DNA of 36,572 nt, from positions 1 through 36,572 of the forward strand of contig DYEF01000046.1 in assembly GCA_020725805.1 (NCBI GenBank), read 5' to 3'. Below are positions 6,500-17,486 of this stretch, piece by piece. The stretch's first letter is position 1. Each line of letters opens with the position of its first letter. This DNA comes from Bdellovibrio sp. Its GTDB lineage: Bacteria; Myxococcota; SpSt-1050. The notes below the pieces were generated by a model, which saw nothing but the letters and a program-made list of their open reading frames with translations, was not told where the DNA came from and ran no database searches. The position numbers and the translations under genes were made by a program.

Positions 6500-9187
6500 G
6501 TGAGAAGATTTCTGATTTCCTGTTTGTGTGTGTTTCCGTTGTTTCTTTTTGTCTTTTCTGTAAGGACGGATTACGAAAGACCGCAGGTCTTAGGCAGTGG
6601 CCTGAAACCGGGTTGGTATCTCAATCTGCCGCTGTATTTCATAAAGAATGACGGACAGACAGATGAGAGGGTTAGATATTACGAGAACGGATTCGGGAAG
6701 GGTATATTTTTTACCGATGACGGGATATATATAAGTATGTCCGGCATTGATACGGGAGACGGCAAGAGAACCGAAGAGTATGTAAAGATTACTCCTCTTG
6801 ATACAAGCAAAGAGAGCAGGATAGAGGCCGAGGAAATTCTTGAGGGCAGGGTGAATTACTTTACCGGAAATGATCCGTCGGGGTGGCACAGGGACATACC
6901 CGTATATGCAAAACTCAGGTATAAAGAGATTTACGAAAAGACGGATCTGGTTTTTTACGGCAATCAGGGTCAGCTGGAATACGACATCGTTGTAAATCCG
7001 GGAGCGGATCCGGGGAAAGTCGCTTTCAGGTACGACGGGATAAATGATTTGCGGGTAAACAGCCGGGGAGAACTTGTTGCGGTTCTTCCCTCAGGAAGGG
7101 AGATTATTCAGAGGAGACCTCACATATATCAGGTAAAAGATGGCAAAAAGGTCGAGCTTTCGGGTGAGTATTCGTTCAGAAAGGATGGTAATTCGTTCGT
7201 ATATGGTTTTGCTGTGCCGGAATATGACAGAGGTTATGCCCTTGTGGTTGATCCGGTAATGCTGATTGCATCGACTTATCTGGGAGGAACCGGTGAGGAT
7301 TTCGGGTCCGGAATAGCCCTTGATTCGGAAGGTAATGTATATCTGACCGGGAATACAAGCTCTGTTGACTTTCCTTTGCAGAATCCTCTTCAGTCCGAGC
7401 GATACTCGGTTGATGTATTTGTGACAAAAATGAACCCGTCGCTCAGTTCTCTCATTTATTCGACATATATCGGAGGTAGCAATCCTGATGTTGGAGCGAA
7501 AGTCGTTGTTGATAACCTCGGCAATGCGTATGTTACAGGCTATACAGATTCGTCAGACTTTCCTCTGAAGGATGCGGGACAGAACGCCTTTGGGGGCAGC
7601 AGAGATGCTTTCATGCTTAAACTGGGCCCTCTGGGAAATGAGCTGTTGTATTCGACATATATAGGTGGCTTGGGTTATGATCAGGGTTATGGAATTGCGG
7701 TTGACTCACTGGGCAATACCTATGTCTGCGGTTTTACAATGTCAGATACATTGCCGGGACAGTTGGATATCTTTAAGGGGGGAACGTCCGATGCCTTTGT
7801 TGCAAAGGTGAATAAGGAGGGTATTGTAACGTCGGGTTTTATAGGAGGGTCGGCGTCCGAATCTGCCGAGGCAATTGCGTTTGGCAAAGATGGGTATTTA
7901 TATATTGCGGGTTCAACAAATTCGGGAGATTTTCAGGTCAGTTCTGATGCCCTTCTGAAAAGTGCAAAGGGGATTGAAAACGGTTTTCTGATGAAGATCA
8001 ATCCGTCGGTACTTTCAATGGTGTATTCAACCTATATCAGCGGTAGTGACTGCGGGGCTGTCGAACAGGAGTTCGTTAGCGGTGTGGCCGTGGACTCATC
8101 GGGCCTCGTTTATCTAACCGGTCACTCGAGTTGTAACGATTTGCCCCTGAAGAACGCATATCAGGCTGCTGTTTCAGGGAGCGATGATATTTATATTATC
8201 AAGCTCGACCTGTCGAAGAGCGGAGAGGATGCAGTTCTTTATGCCTCCTTCATCGGGGGAAGCGGTATAGAAAGAGGGCGTGCTATTGCTGTCGATGATT
8301 TGGGGAATGCCTTTATTGCCGGTTATGCTGATTCAATGGATTTTCCGGTGAAGAATGCCTTTCAGACGAAGAAGAAAGGCTTTGATGAGGTTGTGGTTGT
8401 AAAGATGGATACGACAAAGAGCGGTGAAGAGAGCCTTGTATATTCCACATATCTCGGAGGGGAAGCCAGCGAAAGAGGGCACGGAATAGCGATAGATTCG
8501 GCGGGGAATGCCTATCTGACCGGACACACAGGTTCTCCGAATTTTCCCACAACCAGCGATACTTTTATGCCGAAATATAAGGGTTCGTATAAGGTTTTTA
8601 TTTCGAAACTCGGGGTTTCATATACTCTGAAAGTCTCGCTCCCGGGCACAGGGAAGGGCTCTGTTCGCAGCAGTCCGGCCGGAATAGATTGCGGAAGTGA
8701 CTGCGAAGAGATATATGCATCAGGTACAAAAGTAGAAATGACCGCGACCCCTGATGGTGATTCGGTTTTTATGGGCTGGGGAGACGACTGTCTATCCTGT
8801 GCCGGCAATGCGGTTTGCTCAATCTCTGTAACTTCTGACAGGAACTGCTCTGCAAAATTTGATATCAAGCAGGTAGAAGCAGACGCAGGAGAGGATATAA
8901 TCGATATTCCTGATGTCTCACAGGATACCGGCACAGAAGATATAACTGACGTGACTGAATCGACCGATATATCAGATACAGCAGAGGTATCCGATATTAC
9001 TGACCTGTCGGAACCGCAGGATATAAAGGATATTATTCAGACCGAGGACATAACGGATATTTCTGCGGATGTGTCAGTTACGGATGCCGGACAGGATACG
9101 GCTCAGAAGAATGACGGTTCTACAAATGTAACAGAAGATAAGAGCAAGGGAGATGAGAGCGGCTGCTCCTGCAGTCTGATTGAATGA
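6500..9187 (+). CDS. Secreted SBBP beta-propeller protein
   Basis: The start is GTG at 6500 behind a near-perfect AAGGAGGT ribosome site. Residues 1-20 form a signal peptide. Residues ~30-250 match the region usually found N-terminal to SBBP repeats in large exoproteins (FIKNDGQTDERVRYY, then VNYFTGNDPSGWHRDIPVY). From ~255 to ~707 there are seven SBBP-type repeats of the form YSTYIGG...GIAVDSxGNxYxTGxTxSxDFP, enough for a seven-bladed beta-propeller. Residues ~708-789 form a 'bacterial repeat' beta domain (GKGSVRSSPAGIDCGSDC ... FMGWGDDC) with three Cys pairs. An Asp/Thr/Ile-rich linker (~790-885) follows, then the short tail GCSCSLIE. It is probably a cell-surface or secreted protein. Ligand and function are unknown. 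Confidence 0.85.
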   Translation: MRRFLISCLCVFPLFLFVFSVRTDYERPQVLGSGLKPGWYLNLPLYFIKNDGQTDERVRYYENGFGKGIFFTDDGIYISMSGIDTGDGKRTEEYVKITPLDTSKESRIEAEEILEGRVNYFTGNDPSGWHRDIPVYAKLRYKEIYEKTDLVFYGNQGQLEYDIVVNPGADPGKVAFRYDGINDLRVNSRGELVAVLPSGREIIQRRPHIYQVKDGKKVELSGEYSFRKDGNSFVYGFAVPEYDRGYALVVDPVMLIASTYLGGTGEDFGSGIALDSEGNVYLTGNTSSVDFPLQNPLQSERYSVDVFVTKMNPSLSSLIYSTYIGGSNPDVGAKVVVDNLGNAYVTGYTDSSDFPLKDAGQNAFGGSRDAFMLKLGPLGNELLYSTYIGGLGYDQGYGIAVDSLGNTYVCGFTMSDTLPGQLDIFKGGTSDAFVAKVNKEGIVTSGFIGGSASESAEAIAFGKDGYLYIAGSTNSGDFQVSSDALLKSAKGIENGFLMKINPSVLSMVYSTYISGSDCGAVEQEFVSGVAVDSSGLVYLTGHSSCNDLPLKNAYQAAVSGSDDIYIIKLDLSKSGEDAVLYASFIGGSGIERGRAIAVDDLGNAFIAGYADSMDFPVKNAFQTKKKGFDEVVVVKMDTTKSGEESLVYSTYLGGEASERGHGIAIDSAGNAYLTGHTGSPNFPTTSDTFMPKYKGSYKVFISKLGVSYTLKVSLPGTGKGSVRSSPAGIDCGSDCEEIYASGTKVEMTATPDGDSVFMGWGDDCLSCAGNAVCSISVTSDRNCSAKFDIKQVEADAGEDIIDIPDVSQDTGTEDITDVTESTDISDTAEVSDITDLSEPQDIKDIIQTEDITDISADVSVTDAGQDTAQKNDGSTNVTEDKSKGDESGCSCSLIE

Positions 9188-9403: not shown

Positions 9404-9781
9404 CTATAATTCTTCCACTTCCCATTTTTCGTTTATATAGATTCCGAAAACGTCGATATCCTTGAGATGACTTTTTGCGACCTCTGTACTCTTCTTTACC
9501 AGTTCAATGTGTCTTTCCTTGCTGACCGGATTGCCTGCACAGTCGTGATGACCCACAATTATCAGCTTCTTTGAGCCGTGTTTTTCGGTCGAGATTCTAA
9601 TCTTTTTAAGTGTGTATTCGAGGAATTTCTGGTCCTCTGTCAGCAACACAAGGTCGGGACCCGGTTCATTGATCATATCGACATAATCTGCCCCGAACTT
9701 CTTCTTTGCCCAGTTTATAACAGGCTCCTGTGTCCTTCCGTCCATACAGTTGATAGATGTAACAAACTTTCCGTGACTCAT
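9404..9781 (-). CDS. Miniature beta-carbonic-anhydrase-like protein
   Basis: At 125 aa this is about 60 percent of a classical beta-carbonic anhydrase, but it keeps both zinc-site motifs: CMDGR (Cys12, Asp14, Arg16) and HHDC (His78, Cys81) inside VGHHDCAGN. The segments between them are short and the C terminus stops soon after the second motif. Small beta-CA-like proteins of this kind are widespread and mostly uncharacterised; CO2 hydration should not be assumed. Its ATG overlaps the stop of the S26 peptidase gene as ATGA, with GGAGGAA as ribosome site, so it is the translationally coupled last gene of the recA train. Confidence 0.8.
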   Translation of the reverse strand: MSHGKFVTSINCMDGRTQEPVINWAKKKFGADYVDMINEPGPDLVLLTEDQKFLEYTLKKIRISTEKHGSKKLIIVGHHDCAGNPVSKERHIELVKKSTEVAKSHLKDIDVFGIYINEKWEVEEL

Positions 9782-10266
9782 TTATTCCTCCTTAGTGACT
9801 CTGTTATATCTTTATGTGAGATTCTGAGTCCGAGCAGGGATTTGACCTGTCTTGCCCTGTTCAGAATAAATCTTGCAGCCGATATTACGATCGGATGAAA
9901 TGATGGTGGTGTGAATTCCCTGCTGCCCCTTATTACCTTAGTAGCCTTCCCTCCTATATCCTCCTCCCATACCGGCTGGTCTTCGTAAGAGAGGTTGTCG
10001 CCCCTGATGATAAAGAGCCTTCTTCCTTTTGCGGTTGTGTGGATTCTGATAATTCTGTGAACAATCATAACATTTTTTCTGACATACATTACAATATCAC
10101 CGGTTCTCAGGTCTTCCGGCAGTACTCTTTCTATAATCACCTCATCGCCGTCAATAAGAAAGGGGAACATAGAGACACCTTTTACCCTGAACCTGAATCT
10201 TCCGTGTTTTTCAATCGCATCTCTGATTGTTCTGACAGATATCTCTTCCCTCTTCCTTTTATTCAT
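9778..10266 (-). CDS. S24/S26 family serine peptidase (signal-peptidase-like, no membrane anchor)
   Basis: The protein has the S26 peptidase core: GVSMFPFLIDGDEV (nucleophile Ser32), the GDIVMY strand, IVHRI with His70, and the terminal FIIRGDN box. The presence of His where bacterial LepB has Lys is the S26B pattern of archaeal/ER and SipW-type enzymes. There is no clear N-terminal transmembrane helix and the 162 aa length is short, so it may act in the cytoplasm. S24/S26 peptidases of this size often sit beside radical SAM, HPr-kinase-like or PqqD genes in peptide-modification loci. Here the neighbours are a SPASM enzyme (8 bp overlap) and, one gene further, an HPr-kinase-like protein. A role in maturing a modified peptide is inference. 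Confidence 0.8.
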   Translation of the reverse strand: MNKRKREEISVRTIRDAIEKHGRFRFRVKGVSMFPFLIDGDEVIIERVLPEDLRTGDIVMYVRKNVMIVHRIIRIHTTAKGRRLFIIRGDNLSYEDQPVWEEDIGGKATKVIRGSREFTPPSFHPIVISAARFILNRARQVKSLLGLRISHKDITESLRRNK

Positions 10267-11305
10267 AGTACATCCTTGCTCTCTGGCAGGCGAGCTCCGA
10301 TGGTTTGTATATATCGTTATTATCTCTGAGATTCAGTCCCGGGCAGATAGAGCAGATACCCAGATATCTGCAAGACAGGCATTTTTTGTAGTCCTTTATT
10401 CTGAGGCCCTGAATCTCTTTGAGTCTTGATGAGTTCTTCCAGATGTCGGTAAGACTCTCTTTTCTGATGTCACCGAGCAGTTCGTTCCATTCCACGCAGG
10501 GGAAGACCTTCCCGTCCGGTGAAATATAAAGACCGGTAATTCCGGCGTAGCAGGTAACGGCCTCTTTTCCGACCTTCTTCAGTTCGGAATCTTCCATCTC
10601 TTCGACCTTTACCTCTTTCTTCTTTTCTATCTTCTTTATCTCTTTATACAGTCTCTTCTTCTCCTCAAAGGGTATGTTCAGCTCTTTTACACCCGGCCGC
10701 GATTTCATCGTGGGAGAGATGACCATATCGTATTGGGCGAGAATGTTCTCTCCCTGTGATTTGACCCATTTAAGCAGTTCCGGATACACTTTGTAGTTTT
10801 CTTTCATTACCGAGGTTTTGATTACGACGTTTATGCCTTTTTTGTGCAGAATTTCTATTGCCCTCATTGTCCTGTAAAAGGAACCTTTTACCCCTGTGAT
10901 ACTGTCGTGAATATCGGGTTGCAGGGCGTATAGGGAGACTCCCGCACTTACTGTGTTGTACTTTTTTAGAATCTCTGCCTCTCTCTCTCCGAGCAGATAT
11001 CCTGACGTGATAATCTTAATTGAAAAATTGAGTTTTCTTGTAATTTTGAGTATTTCCCCGAAGTCTTTTCTGGCAAAGACCTCTCCGCCGGAATATGTGA
11101 CGAACATAGCATTTAGTCTCAGAGCATCCCTTAAAACCTTTTCAATCTCCTTTGGTGTAAGCTCTCTGGTTCTTCTGTGGTCAATGTAGCAATGAATGCA
11201 TCTGAGAGGACATCTGTATGTAATATCGATGTGAAGTGAGAGGAGAGAACCACTCTTTCTCGCCTTCTTCCGCAGATATTCAAAGGCCGAAATCTTTTCT
11301 GCCAA
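10259..11305 (-). CDS. Radical SAM/SPASM-domain enzyme
   Basis: The radical SAM [4Fe-4S] motif is CPLRCIHC (Cys32, 36, 39), followed by the SAM-binding TYSGGEV. From about residue 253 there is a SPASM domain: TCYAGITGLYISPDGKVFPCVEW, then LLGDIRKESLTDIW, then the Cys cluster CLSCRYLGICSICPG and a final ACQR. SPASM enzymes commonly modify ribosomal peptides or proteins (thioether links, C-C links, epimerisation) using auxiliary Fe-S clusters. The start is a TTG at 11305, directly after the TGA of the HPr-kinase-like gene, with GGAGGTGAT as ribosome site. No RiPP recognition (PqqD) domain is visible at its N terminus. The substrate is unknown. Confidence 0.9.
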   Translation of the reverse strand: MAEKISAFEYLRKKARKSGSLLSLHIDITYRCPLRCIHCYIDHRRTRELTPKEIEKVLRDALRLNAMFVTYSGGEVFARKDFGEILKITRKLNFSIKIITSGYLLGEREAEILKKYNTVSAGVSLYALQPDIHDSITGVKGSFYRTMRAIEILHKKGINVVIKTSVMKENYKVYPELLKWVKSQGENILAQYDMVISPTMKSRPGVKELNIPFEEKKRLYKEIKKIEKKKEVKVEEMEDSELKKVGKEAVTCYAGITGLYISPDGKVFPCVEWNELLGDIRKESLTDIWKNSSRLKEIQGLRIKDYKKCLSCRYLGICSICPGLNLRDNNDIYKPSELACQRARMYYE

Positions 11306-12097
11306 TCAGATCACCTCCAGAAATTTGGAGTCTTTCGTAAAGTAGAGGAAGGCATTTTCGGTCTTCCCGATAATCTTCTTCATACTGTCAAAGGCTTTGC
11401 CGAAACTATCATTATCAACAGATGCATAGAGCATATTCTCAAGCATGTTTTGTATTGCCTCGTCTCTTGTTGTACTCTTTTTGTAATTCTTTTTTGCCTG
11501 TCTTATGAAATAGATATTTGAAAGAGGGGCCTTTTTGTATTCTCCCCTGATTTTTGTATTCCCCCAGAAGGGAGTGGAGTACGCAAATACCTTTCCCCTT
11601 TCGATGGAGATATAGGAAATCTCGTCGGAGAGAACCGATATCTTAGGGTCGGCCGAGGCGGCAATTCTTGAAAGCGTGCTCTTGCCGGCACCTGATTTTC
11701 CGGGGAAGAGATACGCCCTGTCGTCTCTCACAAAGGATGCGGCGTGGACAAATAATCCTCCAGAATTGATGATTTTGATGGCATATATCATTCTGAGAAA
11801 AGACGTGAGTACATACGGCCTGCTGTTGATTTTAGCTGATGCAGAACCACTTGAGAGGTCGAATGTCCCTGAGAAGTAATACCATTTTATTTCGTACGTG
11901 TGCAAACCGGTCCTGACGGCGGGGGCCGGACCTTTATAGTCATCGTATCTGAGTCCGTCCGTGAGGTTTGCCCTGAGAACGATATCCGGCTTTTTGGTGG
12001 TCAGAAAACCCCTCAGGATATCCTTTATAAAATCTTCGTGGGCTGATGGTCTGATTATGATTTCGGTTGTAAACTTTCCTATTTTAATCCTGAACAT
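11306..12097 (-). CDS. HPr kinase/phosphorylase-like protein
   Basis: The C-terminal two thirds resemble the HPr kinase catalytic domain: GLFVHAASFV (His118), a Walker A loop FPGKSGAGKST (131-141), and VLSDEISYI with a conserved Asp-Glu pair. The N-terminal ~100 residues are beta-rich and not the usual HprK N domain. HprK-related proteins without a PTS partner occur in lasso-peptide and radical SAM peptide loci, where some phosphorylate a precursor. No HPr or PTS gene is present nearby. The ATG starts two bases after the polyprenyl synthase stop (TAG-CC-ATG) and the radical SAM gene starts immediately after its own stop, so the three are one transcription unit. The substrate is not identifiable. 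Confidence 0.82.
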   Translation of the reverse strand: MFRIKIGKFTTEIIIRPSAHEDFIKDILRGFLTTKKPDIVLRANLTDGLRYDDYKGPAPAVRTGLHTYEIKWYYFSGTFDLSSGSASAKINSRPYVLTSFLRMIYAIKIINSGGLFVHAASFVRDDRAYLFPGKSGAGKSTLSRIAASADPKISVLSDEISYISIERGKVFAYSTPFWGNTKIRGEYKKAPLSNIYFIRQAKKNYKKSTTRDEAIQNMLENMLYASVDNDSFGKAFDSMKKIIGKTENAFLYFTKDSKFLEVI

Positions 12098-12099
12098 GG

Positions 12100-13035
12100 C
12101 TATTTTTTCCGTGCAGAGACCGATTCGAGAAGAGGGGCAAAGATATCTTCTGAAAAGCTGCTTACCAGTCTGAGATGCGCTCCGATCTCTTTTCTGTTTT
12201 TTTCGATAATTTCGTTTACTTCCTTTGTGAGAGATTCATCGCATATGGTCTTTTCTATCTCATTGATTGCTGTGTGGTTTTCACCCCTTGAGGCAAAGTA
12301 TTCCGAAACAAGCTCTCTGAATCCGGCATTCTTTTTCATAAGGAGAATTGCCGGGAGGGTGATATCACCTTCCGAGAGGTCCTTGAGCCTGCTCTTGCCG
12401 GTCTCCCGTCCTGTAAAGTCGAGAAGGTCGTCGGTGAGCTGGAATATCTCGCCGAAGAGCATTCCCGCCTCTCTGAGATGAAGTCTTTCGGATTCGTTCT
12501 TTCTGAAGATTATGCCGACGGATTCGAAGGCGGCAGAGAAGAGCGCGCCGGTCTTCCCCCTTATGATTTCGAAGTAGTCACCTTCGCCAAGACCTGTGTT
12601 CCATCTGAAAGATGCCTGTCTGAGTTCCATCAGCGTCATATATGAAACCGCATATGAATATATCTTTGCAACCTCTGAGTCATAGTTTTCAAGAACGAGG
12701 CGCGAGGCGGATGAGTAGAAGTAGTCTCCTGCGAGAATACTTATCAGATTTCCGTGTCTGGCATTGATAGTCGGTCTGTCTCTTCTGATTGTGCCGTTGT
12801 CTATGACGTCGTCGTGAAAGAGACTTGCAATATGTACGAGTTCGGTCGAGGCCGCGAGGGGGATGAGTCTTTCCGTCTCTTCTTCCCTTATGGAAGATGA
12901 CAGGGTATAAATGGTCTTAGGACGAATCATCTTCCCGCCGTTTATCTCATCGATAATATCCTCGAAGACTTCCTTGCTTCTGAGGAGTTTTATTGCTGTC
13001 TCTCTGACCTTATTGAGAAATTCTCTCTCCTGCAT
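12100..13035 (-). CDS. Long-chain trans-polyprenyl diphosphate synthase
   Basis: The protein has both Asp-rich motifs of prenyltransferases: the first, DDVID (75-79) in HIASLFHDDVIDNGTIRR, and the second, DDLLD (202-206). GKxxRP is present as GGKMIRPK and the GD box as ILAGDYFYSSA. These match IspB/HepS-type enzymes that elongate farnesyl or geranylgeranyl diphosphate with isopentenyl diphosphate. Small residues (Ala70, Ser71) just before the first motif allow a long product, consistent with a C35-C50 quinone side chain. Exact chain length cannot be read from sequence. It starts six bases after recA, and the next gene follows two bases after its stop. Confidence 0.9.
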   Translation of the reverse strand: MQEREFLNKVRETAIKLLRSKEVFEDIIDEINGGKMIRPKTIYTLSSSIREEETERLIPLAASTELVHIASLFHDDVIDNGTIRRDRPTINARHGNLISILAGDYFYSSASRLVLENYDSEVAKIYSYAVSYMTLMELRQASFRWNTGLGEGDYFEIIRGKTGALFSAAFESVGIIFRKNESERLHLREAGMLFGEIFQLTDDLLDFTGRETGKSRLKDLSEGDITLPAILLMKKNAGFRELVSEYFASRGENHTAINEIEKTICDESLTKEVNEIIEKNRKEIGAHLRLVSSFSEDIFAPLLESVSARKK

Positions 13036-13041
13036 AAATCC

Positions 13042-14097
13042 CTATTTCTTCTTCTCCTTTTCCTGTTTCTGCTCGGATGGTTTTGTGAGTCCGTATGATT
13101 CCTTTATTTTATTCTCTATCTCAGAGAGGATATCCTTGTGTTCCTTGAGAAGCATCCGGGCATTCTCCCTCCCCTGTCCGAGTCTCTCGCCTTTGTAGGA
13201 GTACCACGTGCCGGTCTTTTCGATTATGCCGAGGTTTGCGGCTGTATCCAGTATATCTCCCTCCCTCGACATACCCTCGTTGAAGAGTATATCGAATTCA
13301 ACCTCCCTGTGCGGCGGGGCGAGTTTGTTCTTTACCACCTTTACCCTCGTCCTTGCCCCTACTATATCCTCGCCGTTCTTGATTGTCCCGACCTTTCTTA
13401 TGTCGAGTCTGACCGATGAGTAGAATTTCAGAGCCTTTCCGCCGGTGGTGGTCTCGGGATTACCGTACATAACACCAAGCTGCATACGGATCTGGTTTAT
13501 AAAGACAACGAGGGTGTTTGAACGTGATATGGCGGCGGTAAGTTTTCTCAAGGCCTGTGACATAAGTCTTGCCTGAAGACCCATATGGGAATCGCCCATT
13601 TCTCCGTCTATCTCTGCCTTTGGTACGAGAGCAGCAACCGAGTCAACCACTATGAGGTCAACGGCACCGGAGCGGACCAGTGTCTCCACTATCTCGAGTG
13701 CCTCCTCCCCGTAATTCGGCTGTGAGAGGAGAAGGTCATCGACCTTTACTCCGAGCTTTGCTGCGTATTTCAGGTCAAGTGCGTGTTCTGCGTCGACGAA
13801 GACGGCTACACCCTGATTTCTCTGGCATTCTGCAATCAGATGAAGGGCAAGGGTTGTCTTTCCGGAAGACTCAGGTCCGTATATCTCCACAATCCTTCCC
13901 CGGGGGAGTCCGCCTGTGCCAAGGGCAATATCGAGAGAGAGAAGCCCTGTTGAAATGACTGGTATGTTCTTGCTGATTGCCTCAGTGTCCCTGAGTCTCA
14001 TTATAGAGCCTTTGCCGAACTGCTTTTCGATGGTGCTTATGGCTACATCGATTACTTTCTCTCTGTCGGCCTTCTTGGTTTTGTCATCCGCTGTCAT
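13042..14097 (-). CDS. recA: Recombinase RecA
   Basis: RecA forms the ATP-dependent strand-exchange filament and activates LexA cleavage. All signatures are present: [10 protein letters not shown], the Walker A loop [32 protein letters not shown], the loop L2 region [28 protein letters not shown], and a charged Lys/Glu-rich C terminus. The 351 aa length is standard. The ATG is preceded by AAAAGGAGGGC. A perfect 16-bp palindrome lies about 39 bases upstream, a good place for an SOS operator. Five further genes follow with gaps of at most six bases, so recA heads an unusual operon. Confidence 0.98.
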
Positions 14098-14169: not shown

Positions 14170-15585
14170 TTACTTGTAACATAATCTGAGTATGTCGTCT
14201 GCAAAACTACTGTCCTGCTCGAATCTCTCCTTTTCATTTACACTTCCCCCGCATATGACTCTTCTTACGTATTTGTAATCGGTTCTGAACAGAGCGGTCT
14301 GGTAAAGGGTATCGAAGATATCCATTGTCGAGATTGTCAGATTCGGAAGTCCCGACAGGGATGTCTTTATCAGTGCATGTTTCTTTTCGAGATTTTCAAT
14401 ACTGTCCGGGTTGTGAATAAAGAGAGGGGTAAACGGAGACGGAACAAAATTGTTTATGGTGACTTTCAGTGTCCCGAGTCTCCCCCTGTTTCTCGACGAA
14501 TCTATCAGGACCTCCCGTACCTCCCTGATAAAATCGATCATCGCCCCGATATCCTCCATCGTCTCGGAGGGAAGACCGATCATCATATAGAGTTTTATAT
14601 TCATTACGCCGTTTGCGATGAGTTCTTTCAGCGCATCAAACAGCATGTTTTTATCGTAGAATTTATTTGTTACTCTCATCAGCCTCTCTGTTGCGACCTC
14701 CGGGGCAATGGTAAGCGTCTTTATGTTTGATTTAAGAATGAGGGAGATCTTTTTTGATGTAAGGTCTGCAATCCTTATGGACGCAAAGGCCGGGCGCTTT
14801 TTTCTGTAGATTATGTAATCCACGATGTCTGCAATTCTTGAATGTGAAAGAACTGCATCTCCGATAAGCCCGATAGTCTTTATGTCGGGAGGAGATAAAT
14901 CTATCGCACGTATTATGCTGTCGTATTCGAACTCCCTGTAGATGGCATAAAGATGTTTTGAGAGACAGAAATTGCAGTTCCCTTTACAACCCCTGCTGAT
15001 CTCTATGAGGTGCATATTGGCAAACTCTGCTTCGTCGGAGTAGATTATCGAGCGGGGCGGTTCATATTCCAGCGGCCCCGGGTCTTTGAATACCATATCA
15101 ACCCGGTCAGCCAGCGGTTGTACTGTCTCGATTATTCTCTTTCTTGAATAACCGGCTTTTACCATTTTGAATATCATATTTATGTGTTCGGTGTGAGATT
15201 CGATGGTCCCCGGAAAAACGACTGCATCAGAGAATTTGAACAGACCCGGATTTGCCGCGACAGCCACACCCCCGACACAGACCGCCCTGATTTCGTGATG
15301 TGGCAGGAGACCGTAATGACACAACTTGATTACATCGGGTGCATTAAGTATGAAAGGAGCTGTAATGAATGCAACCTTGATGTCTTTGAATTCCAGATTG
15401 TGTTCGATACTTCTACCGGTCTCTACGATGAATCTGTCACAAAGGACGCCGCTGAGATTGTTAACAAATGAATAGAGACTCTGGTATGCGAGTGAGGACA
15501 TCGCGGCTTCGTACGGTCCGGGGAAGAATAGCCCCGTATGAAGGTGACGGCCGCGCTGTTTGATTATTATACCTTTCTCTATCAT
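14170..15585 (-). CDS. Radical SAM protein (B12-binding-type architecture)
   Basis: The radical SAM motif is CKGNCNFC (Cys200, 204, 207), preceded by HLIEISRGC. Ahead of it, residues 10-165 resemble the cobalamin-binding-like domain of TIGR039xx/TIGR04013-type proteins (LFFPGPYEAAMSSLAYQSLYSF, VLCDRFIVE, VCVGGVAVAANP). A DxHxxG cobalamin motif is not evident, so B12 binding is uncertain. After the motif, KTLTIAPEVATERLMRVTNK and LYMMIGLPSETMEDI are typical of the MiaB/B12 radical SAM barrel. The reaction is unknown. Its ATG overlaps the stop of the polymerase gene as ATGA, and recA begins 72 bases beyond its stop. Confidence 0.82.
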   Translation of the reverse strand: MIEKGIIIKQRGRHLHTGLFFPGPYEAAMSSLAYQSLYSFVNNLSGVLCDRFIVETGRSIEHNLEFKDIKVAFITAPFILNAPDVIKLCHYGLLPHHEIRAVCVGGVAVAANPGLFKFSDAVVFPGTIESHTEHINMIFKMVKAGYSRKRIIETVQPLADRVDMVFKDPGPLEYEPPRSIIYSDEAEFANMHLIEISRGCKGNCNFCLSKHLYAIYREFEYDSIIRAIDLSPPDIKTIGLIGDAVLSHSRIADIVDYIIYRKKRPAFASIRIADLTSKKISLILKSNIKTLTIAPEVATERLMRVTNKFYDKNMLFDALKELIANGVMNIKLYMMIGLPSETMEDIGAMIDFIREVREVLIDSSRNRGRLGTLKVTINNFVPSPFTPLFIHNPDSIENLEKKHALIKTSLSGLPNLTISTMDIFDTLYQTALFRTDYKYVRRVICGGSVNEKERFEQDSSFADDILRLCYK

Positions 15586-17486
15586 TTCTTCTCTTCGTTC
15601 AGAAGATTGTTCAAAGAGGAATCTCCCCAGTACTGACCTATACTAAGGTCGACGTCTATCTCTATCTCCCTGAGTATCTGTCTCGACGCCTCTTTCATTA
15701 AATCTCTGCCGGTTCCGGCAACCTCCGCCGCACACGCTCTGTCGGCCTCGATCAGAATTTCGTCGTGAACGATATTTACTATGTGCGCATTCAGACCCTT
15801 TTCAGTTAGTGCTTCATCTATATTGCTGATCGAGAGCTTCATAATGTCCGCCGCAGTCCCCTGAACAGGCATATTTCTTATGAAACGGTAAAGTTCCTGA
15901 ATCCTGAAATCGATATCGCGTACTGCCTTCCTTAACGGGGCATCCTCGTTTATTACATTCAGTAGTCTCCTGAGATACATTTCGTCGGACGGGACTCCTC
16001 TTTTGAAATACTCCTCCTCGAGTGCCTTGAGAACCAGCGTTTTGTATATCTCCGAGTCAGACCTGCCCGTTTTCCGTGCTATCTCACCAAGTATCTTTTT
16101 CCTCACATCTGTTATGGTCCCGAACGGATTCAGAAGGCATCTTCTGCCGGCAAGTGTGCGGAGTTCTCCCGTCTGCAACGCTGTATTGATTGTGTTCTGA
16201 ATATACGAATGAAGTGACGGAAAAACCATATAGTATGTATTGATGAGTTTTGTTGCCTCCATTTTATCGGTTCCTAATCTCCTTGCGAGTCCCTGCGCAG
16301 TCATACCATAGATGATTCCGAAGTTTATTGCCTTTGCGCGCCTTCTCAGTTCGGGGTTCTCTGTCTTGCTCACCTTTTTTGAAAACATCAGTTCCGCGAC
16401 ATATGAGTGCAGGTCGAGTCTCTTTCTGAAGGCCTTCAGAAAGTGCGGGTCTTTTGAGAGGGCGGCCAGAACACCGAGTTCGAAGGTCGAGAAATCGAGT
16501 GTGATTATCACTCGTCCCTGTGGTGCCGAAAAATACTCCCTGAATATCCTTGTCTTGGGAATGGCAAAGAGGTTTGGTGACTGGGATGATGTCCTTCCGG
16601 AGGCGGATGAAATCTGAATGAATCTGCTGTGAATCCTCGATTCGGGTAGTGTTATGCGCTTTATCAGTTCATTTGCATTCTGGCAGAGAATATGTGCCGG
16701 GTCCTTATAGTTTTTTTCAAACTCTAAGAGCAGATTTTCAAGCCGTATATTTCCCTTTACTCCGTAATTGAAGAGTTTTGCCACCTCTTTCTCGTCGAGC
16801 AGGCTTTCTTCTCCCAGAAGACTTGTTTCACGCGCGCCGCTCAGGAGTCTCGTAAAACCTTTTATGTCAAAATATATTCCGTAGTGCTGAATTCCGGCGA
16901 GACTCTTTATAAGATTGCTCTCGATTCTCGATACCCTCTCGAGCGAGGCGGCCTTGATCTTTTTTACCTGCTCCAGAAAAATTCTGTAAATTACCAGCAG
17001 CTCAATTCTCATATACTCGAGCATCTGCTCACTTATATCGCCGCTGAAATTGTCGAGCAGAATTCTCTTCCCCTTCTCGGCCTTAAAGCCGAGGTATTTC
17101 TCGGAGAGGTCATCCAGCCCTTTAAGTTCGGACGGAAAGAAGTAATTATTCGTAATCAGCTGTTCGAGCAGGAGGATGTCCGTGATATTTGTGATTTTTG
17201 TCTTTTTGTAGCGGTAGACATTGAGTATTATGTCGTATGCCGAAGACATAACCTTCAGGTTTTTTGAGCCGAGAATATCACAGAGTGTACCAGTTCCGCA
17301 CTTTCTGATGTCGAATACATAGTGAATCTTCTCTGTGCCTGCAAGAAGGAGTACAGGTTTTACGGTCTCCTTTTCGGAAAAAAAGAATATATCCAGAGCG
17401 ATGATTGGAAGAAGCGAAATCTCTTTTACGGAGTGAACCGCCTCATCGCTGTTGTTAATGAGTTTAAGACCTGTATTTCTCAGCAT
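15582..17486 (-). CDS. Divergent family A DNA polymerase without 5' nuclease domain
   Basis: The polymerase core is clear: motif A LDFSTFELGVLAALSKDP (Asp331, Glu336), motif B RRRAKAINFGIIYG (382-394) and motif C HIVNIVHDEILIEA (His574, Asp575, Glu576), with MPVQGTAADIMK before motif C. The protein is 634 aa and lacks the 5'-3' nuclease of PolA. The region corresponding to the 3'-5' exonuclease (about 20-170) has lost key acids: DxE is DIF at 32-34 and the final YxxxD is YMRIE. Motif A departs from the usual DYSQIELR. About 70 extra residues (roughly 455-530) sit between the RRxLP-like block and QGTAAD. It could be the replicative gap-filling enzyme or a translesion/repair polymerase. No alternative in-frame start exists after the ATG at 17486. 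Confidence 0.88.
   Translation of the reverse strand: MLRNTGLKLINNSDEAVHSVKEISLLPIIALDIFFFSEKETVKPVLLLAGTEKIHYVFDIRKCGTGTLCDILGSKNLKVMSSAYDIILNVYRYKKTKITNITDILLLEQLITNNYFFPSELKGLDDLSEKYLGFKAEKGKRILLDNFSGDISEQMLEYMRIELLVIYRIFLEQVKKIKAASLERVSRIESNLIKSLAGIQHYGIYFDIKGFTRLLSGARETSLLGEESLLDEKEVAKLFNYGVKGNIRLENLLLEFEKNYKDPAHILCQNANELIKRITLPESRIHSRFIQISSASGRTSSQSPNLFAIPKTRIFREYFSAPQGRVIITLDFSTFELGVLAALSKDPHFLKAFRKRLDLHSYVAELMFSKKVSKTENPELRRRAKAINFGIIYGMTAQGLARRLGTDKMEATKLINTYYMVFPSLHSYIQNTINTALQTGELRTLAGRRCLLNPFGTITDVRKKILGEIARKTGRSDSEIYKTLVLKALEEEYFKRGVPSDEMYLRRLLNVINEDAPLRKAVRDIDFRIQELYRFIRNMPVQGTAADIMKLSISNIDEALTEKGLNAHIVNIVHDEILIEADRACAAEVAGTGRDLMKEASRQILREIEIDVDLSIGQYWGDSSLNNLLNEEKK

Follow-up and report, generated by a model that had tools for sequence, protein, structure and literature searches.

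The closest described counterpart of the genes analysed here is the system for linear polyphosphorylated peptides (LPP) of Paenibacillus alginolyticus, for which it has been shown experimentally that an RRE binds the YxxP motif of the precursor, that an HprK-like kinase polyphosphorylates a single serine and that a SipW-like peptidase takes off the leader after presentation by the RRE (PMC13381572, Popov et al. 2026). Radical SAM enzymes are not mentioned in that paper, which describes LPP as confined to Bacillota (PMC13381572). Similar elements are found in phosphorylated lasso peptides such as paeninodin and its relatives, which combine an HprK homologue with a YxxP or WxxP leader and a discrete RRE (PMC8498205, PMC13381572); their HprK homologues phosphorylate a C-terminal serine (PMC8498205). 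An HprK-like protein, a PqqD-like protein and a SPASM radical SAM enzyme likewise come together in SynChlorMet (TIGR04248-TIGR04251) and in the HPr-rel-A/B families (TIGR04352, TIGR04353, TIGR04355), and sactipeptide and ranthipeptide maturases such as SkfB and PapB are SPASM enzymes acting on cysteine-containing cores. Searching the open-licence literature in PMC for SynChlorMet, or for radical SAM enzymes combined with HPr kinase, returned nothing that describes the system presented below.

The window, by which we mean the whole stretch of 36,572 nucleotides analysed here, carries on its minus strand a block of four genes encoding an HprK-like kinase (11306-12097, 263 aa), a radical SAM/SPASM enzyme (10259-11305, 348 aa, with a TTG start), a soluble Ser-His peptidase of family S26 of the archaeal or SipW type (9778-10266, 162 aa) and a Pro_CA_2 carbonic anhydrase-like protein (9404-9781, 125 aa). 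The first two genes abut, the radical SAM and S26 genes overlap by 8 bp and the S26 and carbonic anhydrase-like genes by 4 bp. On the same strand, the gene for a polyprenyl diphosphate synthase (12100-13035, PF00348) is an operon neighbour 2 bp upstream of the kinase gene, with recA (13042-14097) another 6 bp further on. These coordinates and junctions, the position downstream of recA and the synthase, and the four gene identities, on which domain matches and catalytic residues agree, all bear out the original prediction. The entire block is kept in synteny, with 54-89% identity, in a second species of the same genus (G001, Deltaproteobacteria SKW273, assigned to Myxococcota by NCBI), so it is not a chance arrangement; recA, recognised by sequence and by this synteny, is 89% identical. 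A further genome of the same order, G002, keeps the genes for the kinase, the radical SAM enzyme and the peptidase, but its polyprenyl synthase gene does not adjoin them as it does in G001. We judge the synthase and recA to be unrelated to the module.

The kinase has retained H118, the Walker A sequence GKSGAGKST and D158, with a His-to-Lys spacing of 21 residues that is the same in the canonical HprK of this genome, and its AlphaFold model (pLDDT 94.9) matches the fold of PEPCK structures within the PEPCK/HprK superfamily. ScmC and HprK_rel_A are its best NCBIfam matches, both far under cut-off, and all the HprK-like, radical SAM and PqqD proteins that were tested lie under the specific NCBIfam cut-offs. 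SynChlorMet and HPr-rel-A/B are among the best neighbours in that database, yet the scores of 33.8 bits for ScmC, 112.9 for ScmE and 31.4 for ScmD, against cut-offs of 125, 400 and 100, respectively, place the present system outside SynChlorMet. The radical SAM enzyme matches PF04055 (3e-26) and the SPASM family PF13186 (3e-12), with its CX3CX2C motif and seven SPASM cysteines intact, and comparison of profiles with the PDB brings it closest to SkfB (2.5e-43), followed by PqqE (8e-36). As judged from sequence, this SPASM and cysteine anatomy is consistent with sactipeptide-type thioether formation, and the enzyme would modify a cysteine-containing core; with respect to SkfB and PapB, however, the leader motif is different, the RRE stands alone and a kinase and an S26 peptidase are added, the thioether chemistry being a prediction here. 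The peptidase lies above the cut-off of the archaeal-type signal peptidase I family TIGR02228 (57.2 vs 51.85 bits) and conserves S32 and H70. No transmembrane segment was found in it (maximal 19-residue hydropathy 1.05), a property more in keeping with a leader peptidase of the cytosol than with a signal peptidase. Its AlphaFold model (pLDDT 82.8) is weaker than that of the kinase and best matches SPC-A of the human signal peptidase complex, with modest confidence.

These enzymes create an obvious question: Where is their substrate? It had been remarked at the outset that neither a precursor peptide nor a PqqD domain nor a transporter accompanies the cassette, and this holds within the window, where [Y/W]xxP open reading frames inside or adjoining the module are random frames only. 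The accompanying suggestion, that the substrate may be encoded elsewhere, is well supported: searches of the whole genome (G000) gave exactly one PqqD-domain match and one precursor-profile match, both on contig C8. The standalone PqqD/RRE gene (C8:18369-18566) lies about 280 bp from the gene of a 2,432-aa Ig/FG-GAP lipoprotein, which runs in the opposite direction and has at its other side a [Y/W]xxP peptide of 46 residues, MENKIKSKTKKWKKPIIKKVSKKIYLAGCGMADDSACPGGPIDRSE (C8, L080:7526-7666). The open reading frame of this peptide starts 13 nt after the stop codon of the giant and has a good Shine-Dalgarno sequence (AAAAGGAGCATAACT-ATG); no terminator-like fold was found after it (z 0.95). Since the peptide was already part of the profile alignment, its match of 7.6e-8 means only that the genome has no second one, and the single strong match in G002 (6e-13) also belongs to a member of the alignment. 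In G001 the profile found a weak new match (E 0.035), a peptide of 49 residues encoded downstream of a different protein, a beta-propeller of 1,013 aa. G002 has an equivalent layout of PqqD, giant and short peptide, the latter being of YRKP type and downstream of a giant 40% identical to that on C8 over 2,419 aa. The PqqD genes of G000 and G001 occupy an equivalent place, next to a 414-aa gene that the two genomes share at 88% identity, and the split is also found in G002; the separation into two loci is thus a property of this order and not a binning artefact. Given that enzymes and substrate sit on separate contigs, their pairing in this genome rests on the relatives.

It could be argued that the C8 peptide is modified by a different radical SAM enzyme, for instance that encoded at C8:7872-8864, only 1.7 kb away, and that the module of the window serves another substrate. 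We regard this as unlikely: the nearby gene was dropped as a partner of the peptide because it is not conserved in G001 or G002, where it has no orthologue; moreover, it lies beyond an oppositely oriented gene, and the only PqqD and the only precursor-profile match of the genome are both found on C8. Its product also falls outside the HprK- and PqqD-linked clade of the radical SAM tree. That clade, to which the enzyme of the window belongs, contains 61 rows, 54 of them with HprK and/or PqqD adjacent; it is separated (SH-aLRT 97) from 55 further SPASM rows, 54 of which lack both. The enzyme of the window clusters with loci of giant type (SH-aLRT 90).

A scan of the collection with a three-member radical SAM alignment, a 13-member one being too diverse, added further related loci in Chloroflexota, Acidobacteriota, Omnitrophota, Elusimicrobiota, Bdellovibrionota, Fermentibacterota and others. 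Among the 47 loci that have HprK together with the radical SAM enzyme, PqqD is present at 41, an S24/S26 peptidase at 39 and a [Y/W]xxP precursor at 37 (41, 36 and 37, respectively, for the 44 loci outside this order), so that by gene content a short precursor and an RRE gene mark them as RiPP loci. The conserved module is the HprK-like kinase, the radical SAM/SPASM enzyme and the soluble S26 peptidase. Two loci of more distant Myxococcota (L088 and L089) unite all elements in the order PqqD - giant - precursor - HprK - rSAM - S24, with variants at L053, L058, L101, L102 and L105 in the same phylum. A second layout dispenses with the giant (PqqD - rSAM - peptide - HprK - S24) and has cores such as ICKGGLGAGPYGPGCPGGCSGGGS. 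No precursor was found at L117, where the module begins at the edge of the contig.

When aligned without gaps from the aromatic residue of their [Y/W]xxPx[VIL] motif, the precursors have the first cysteine mostly at an offset of 17-20, and exactly at 20 in 28 of 41. The signature [YW]xxP-x(13-16)-C is shared by 36 of 39 precursors, compared with 0.7 on average after shuffling. The search was partly guided by the [Y/W]xxP motif; the regular spacing between motif and cysteine is, for this reason, the more independent evidence. The last residue is Ser or Thr in 23/39 precursors (background 10%), and in 17/33 after crude collapse of similar C-termini. The peptide on C8 ends instead in -SE, its serine being penultimate, which leaves its phosphosite uncertain. 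Three precursors of giant type have no core cysteine, which rules out a single thioether reaction common to all precursors. The precursors tested had no relevant match in Pfam or NCBIfam.

Another possibility is that the module acts in the maturation of a larger protein, cellular or secreted, such as the giant lipoprotein itself, and that the 46-aa open reading frame is incidental. Whole proteins too can be matured by SPASM enzymes, and giants are constant neighbours in one of the Myxococcota layouts. Most loci have a short [Y/W]xxP peptide and no giant, however, and the rigid spacing from motif to cysteine is RiPP-like, for which we give this possibility little credence.

We consider it probable that positions 9778-12097 of the window constitute the enzyme half of a RiPP pathway divided between two loci, with precursor and RRE on C8. 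The scheme transfers the logic of LPP, namely RRE, kinase and SipW-like peptidase, and adds a SPASM step on a cysteine-containing core. The standalone PqqD/RRE of C8 would bind the 46-aa precursor at its W-x-x-P motif; the SPASM enzyme would then modify the core, most plausibly by thioether cross-links from the cysteines at +17 and +25; the HprK-like kinase would phosphorylate a core Ser or Thr, which in many relatives is probably the last residue of the peptide; and the S26 peptidase, working in the cytoplasm, would cut off the leader at position 16 of the motif or close to it, between IYLA and GCGMADD. The mature peptide would probably be exported and may act with the adjoining Ig/FG-GAP surface lipoprotein. 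What the computation establishes is the identity of the genes, their catalytic residues, their co-occurrence and the build of the precursors; the reactions and their order, the type of cross-link, the phosphosite, export and the role of the giant belong to the proposal.

By gene content, the likeness to LPP extends to the standalone RRE, the HprK-like kinase, the leader peptidase of SipW/archaeal S26 type and the [Y/W]xxP leader. The published LPP consensus places the cut at a distance of 16 residues from the motif Tyr, and the same register is occupied by A, S, T or G in 29 of 41 precursors here. The differences are equally clear: a SPASM radical SAM enzyme and a cysteine-containing core, in phyla other than Bacillota; only the [Y/W]xxPx[VIL] part of the LPP leader consensus YxxPxVLxHQxIxFETxxS in common; and neither the NTP transferase nor the MsbA-like exporter of LPP clusters among the module genes of the window. 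Phosphorylated lasso peptides differ in turn from the set conserved here, which is radical SAM enzyme, HprK, PqqD, S26 peptidase and precursor; neither an asparagine-synthase-like macrolactam synthetase nor a B2 peptidase was noticed in the gene sets examined. As the precursors tested have no meaningful match in Pfam or NCBIfam, the HprK-like, radical SAM and PqqD proteins tested score under the specific NCBIfam cut-offs and the LPP paper has no radical SAM enzyme, we read the system as a cousin of LPP and phospho-lasso RiPPs that employs a radical SAM enzyme and that, in this order, is divided between two loci.

The original prediction of a module that modifies, phosphorylates and cleaves is well supported for its three enzymes by the company of PqqD and precursor, and these families co-occur across loci as expected; the carbonic anhydrase-like protein, which had been counted as a fourth component, stands outside. 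Its membership in Pro_CA_2 is clear on sequence (PF20393, 8.5e-49, 165.3 bits vs a cut-off of 30), the zinc motifs CxDxR and HxxC appearing as CMDGR and HHDC. In two species, between which it is 73% identical, its start-stop overlap with the S26 gene would favour a functional fourth member, but a homologue is present in only 5 of 117 related genomes and lies at the module in two of them (G000 and G001). G002 has none, G005 has it on a contig other than that of the module, and 45 of the 47 HprK and radical SAM loci lack it, including all 44 outside this order. A functional part in the module is very doubtful on this evidence, and its absence from G002 and from those 45 loci led us to rule the protein out as a member; the gene is probably a co-transcribed passenger that travels with the module only in this genus. 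That the HprK-like protein is instead the HPr kinase of carbon control, sharing a transcript with unrelated housekeeping genes, is hardly credible despite the resemblance of its P-loop and His/Asp residues to HprK, because the genome has a canonical HprK (PF07475, 5.9e-66) close to the HPr gene on contig C54, a Pfam domain search found no match to PF07475 (HPr kinase/phosphorylase) in the kinase of the window, and kinases of its type are accompanied by radical SAM, PqqD and S26 proteins across phyla.

With the two-locus RiPP pathway as the preferred reading, a broader proposal can be made, though tentatively: these loci may represent an undescribed and widespread class of RiPPs, comprising small, mostly cysteine-containing peptides. 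A SPASM enzyme would modify these peptides, an HprK-like kinase would phosphorylate them close to the C-terminus and a SipW-type peptidase would release them in the cytosol. One branch of Myxococcota would have a product that works with a giant surface lipoprotein of Ig/FG-GAP type; in the present order substrate and enzymes would have become separated. The kinase and SipW-peptidase logic demonstrated in Bacillota would then extend to many phyla and be joined to radical SAM chemistry, with the prediction of a class of phosphorylated, radical-modified peptides. The precursor signature, which neither Pfam nor NCBIfam contains, allows dozens of unannotated peptides to be found, and the case warns that the precursor of a RiPP cassette that seems to lack one may be encoded on a different contig.

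Several variants were seen among the collected loci. L132 and L140 (Omnitrophota, Oligoflexia) have arrays of three to five radical SAM genes with a single PqqD, HprK and YxxP precursor between them. At L182 (Aegiribacteria), near-identical precursors (11050-11217 and 13055-13366, plus strand) flank HprK and S24, which suggests duplication. [YW]xxP peptides of KKWHKPESKEVVVKEDSTATSCQGKAVGCYAGSSCG type adjoin related radical SAM enzymes at L144, L167 and L181 (CPR/Patescibacteria), where no HprK was found. Genome G026 has a 71-aa peptide with RRKMLKKLAYLAPIVSSLVLSQNAAAAPSCPGQCPAQCSPLCTPICAPNK, probably another type of precursor, beside an HprK and radical SAM pair (L095:9570-9785, plus strand), and a 1,055-aa peptidase of family C25 (gingipain type) with a MYXO-CTERM-like tail directly after an HprK-PqqD-rSAM-S24 locus (L054:916-4086, minus strand). 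In the window itself, positions 14170-17486 (minus strand) hold two overlapping genes for proteins of 471 and 634 aa, conserved in G001; the former matches part of TIGR03960, a fused B12-binding radical SAM family that may be split in two here. At 6500-9187 (plus strand), an 895-aa secreted repeat protein has an Asp/Thr/Ile-rich C-terminus ending in SKGDESGCSCSLIE, with a cysteine cluster like that of a MYXO-CTERM anchor but without the subsequent membrane segment and Arg tail.
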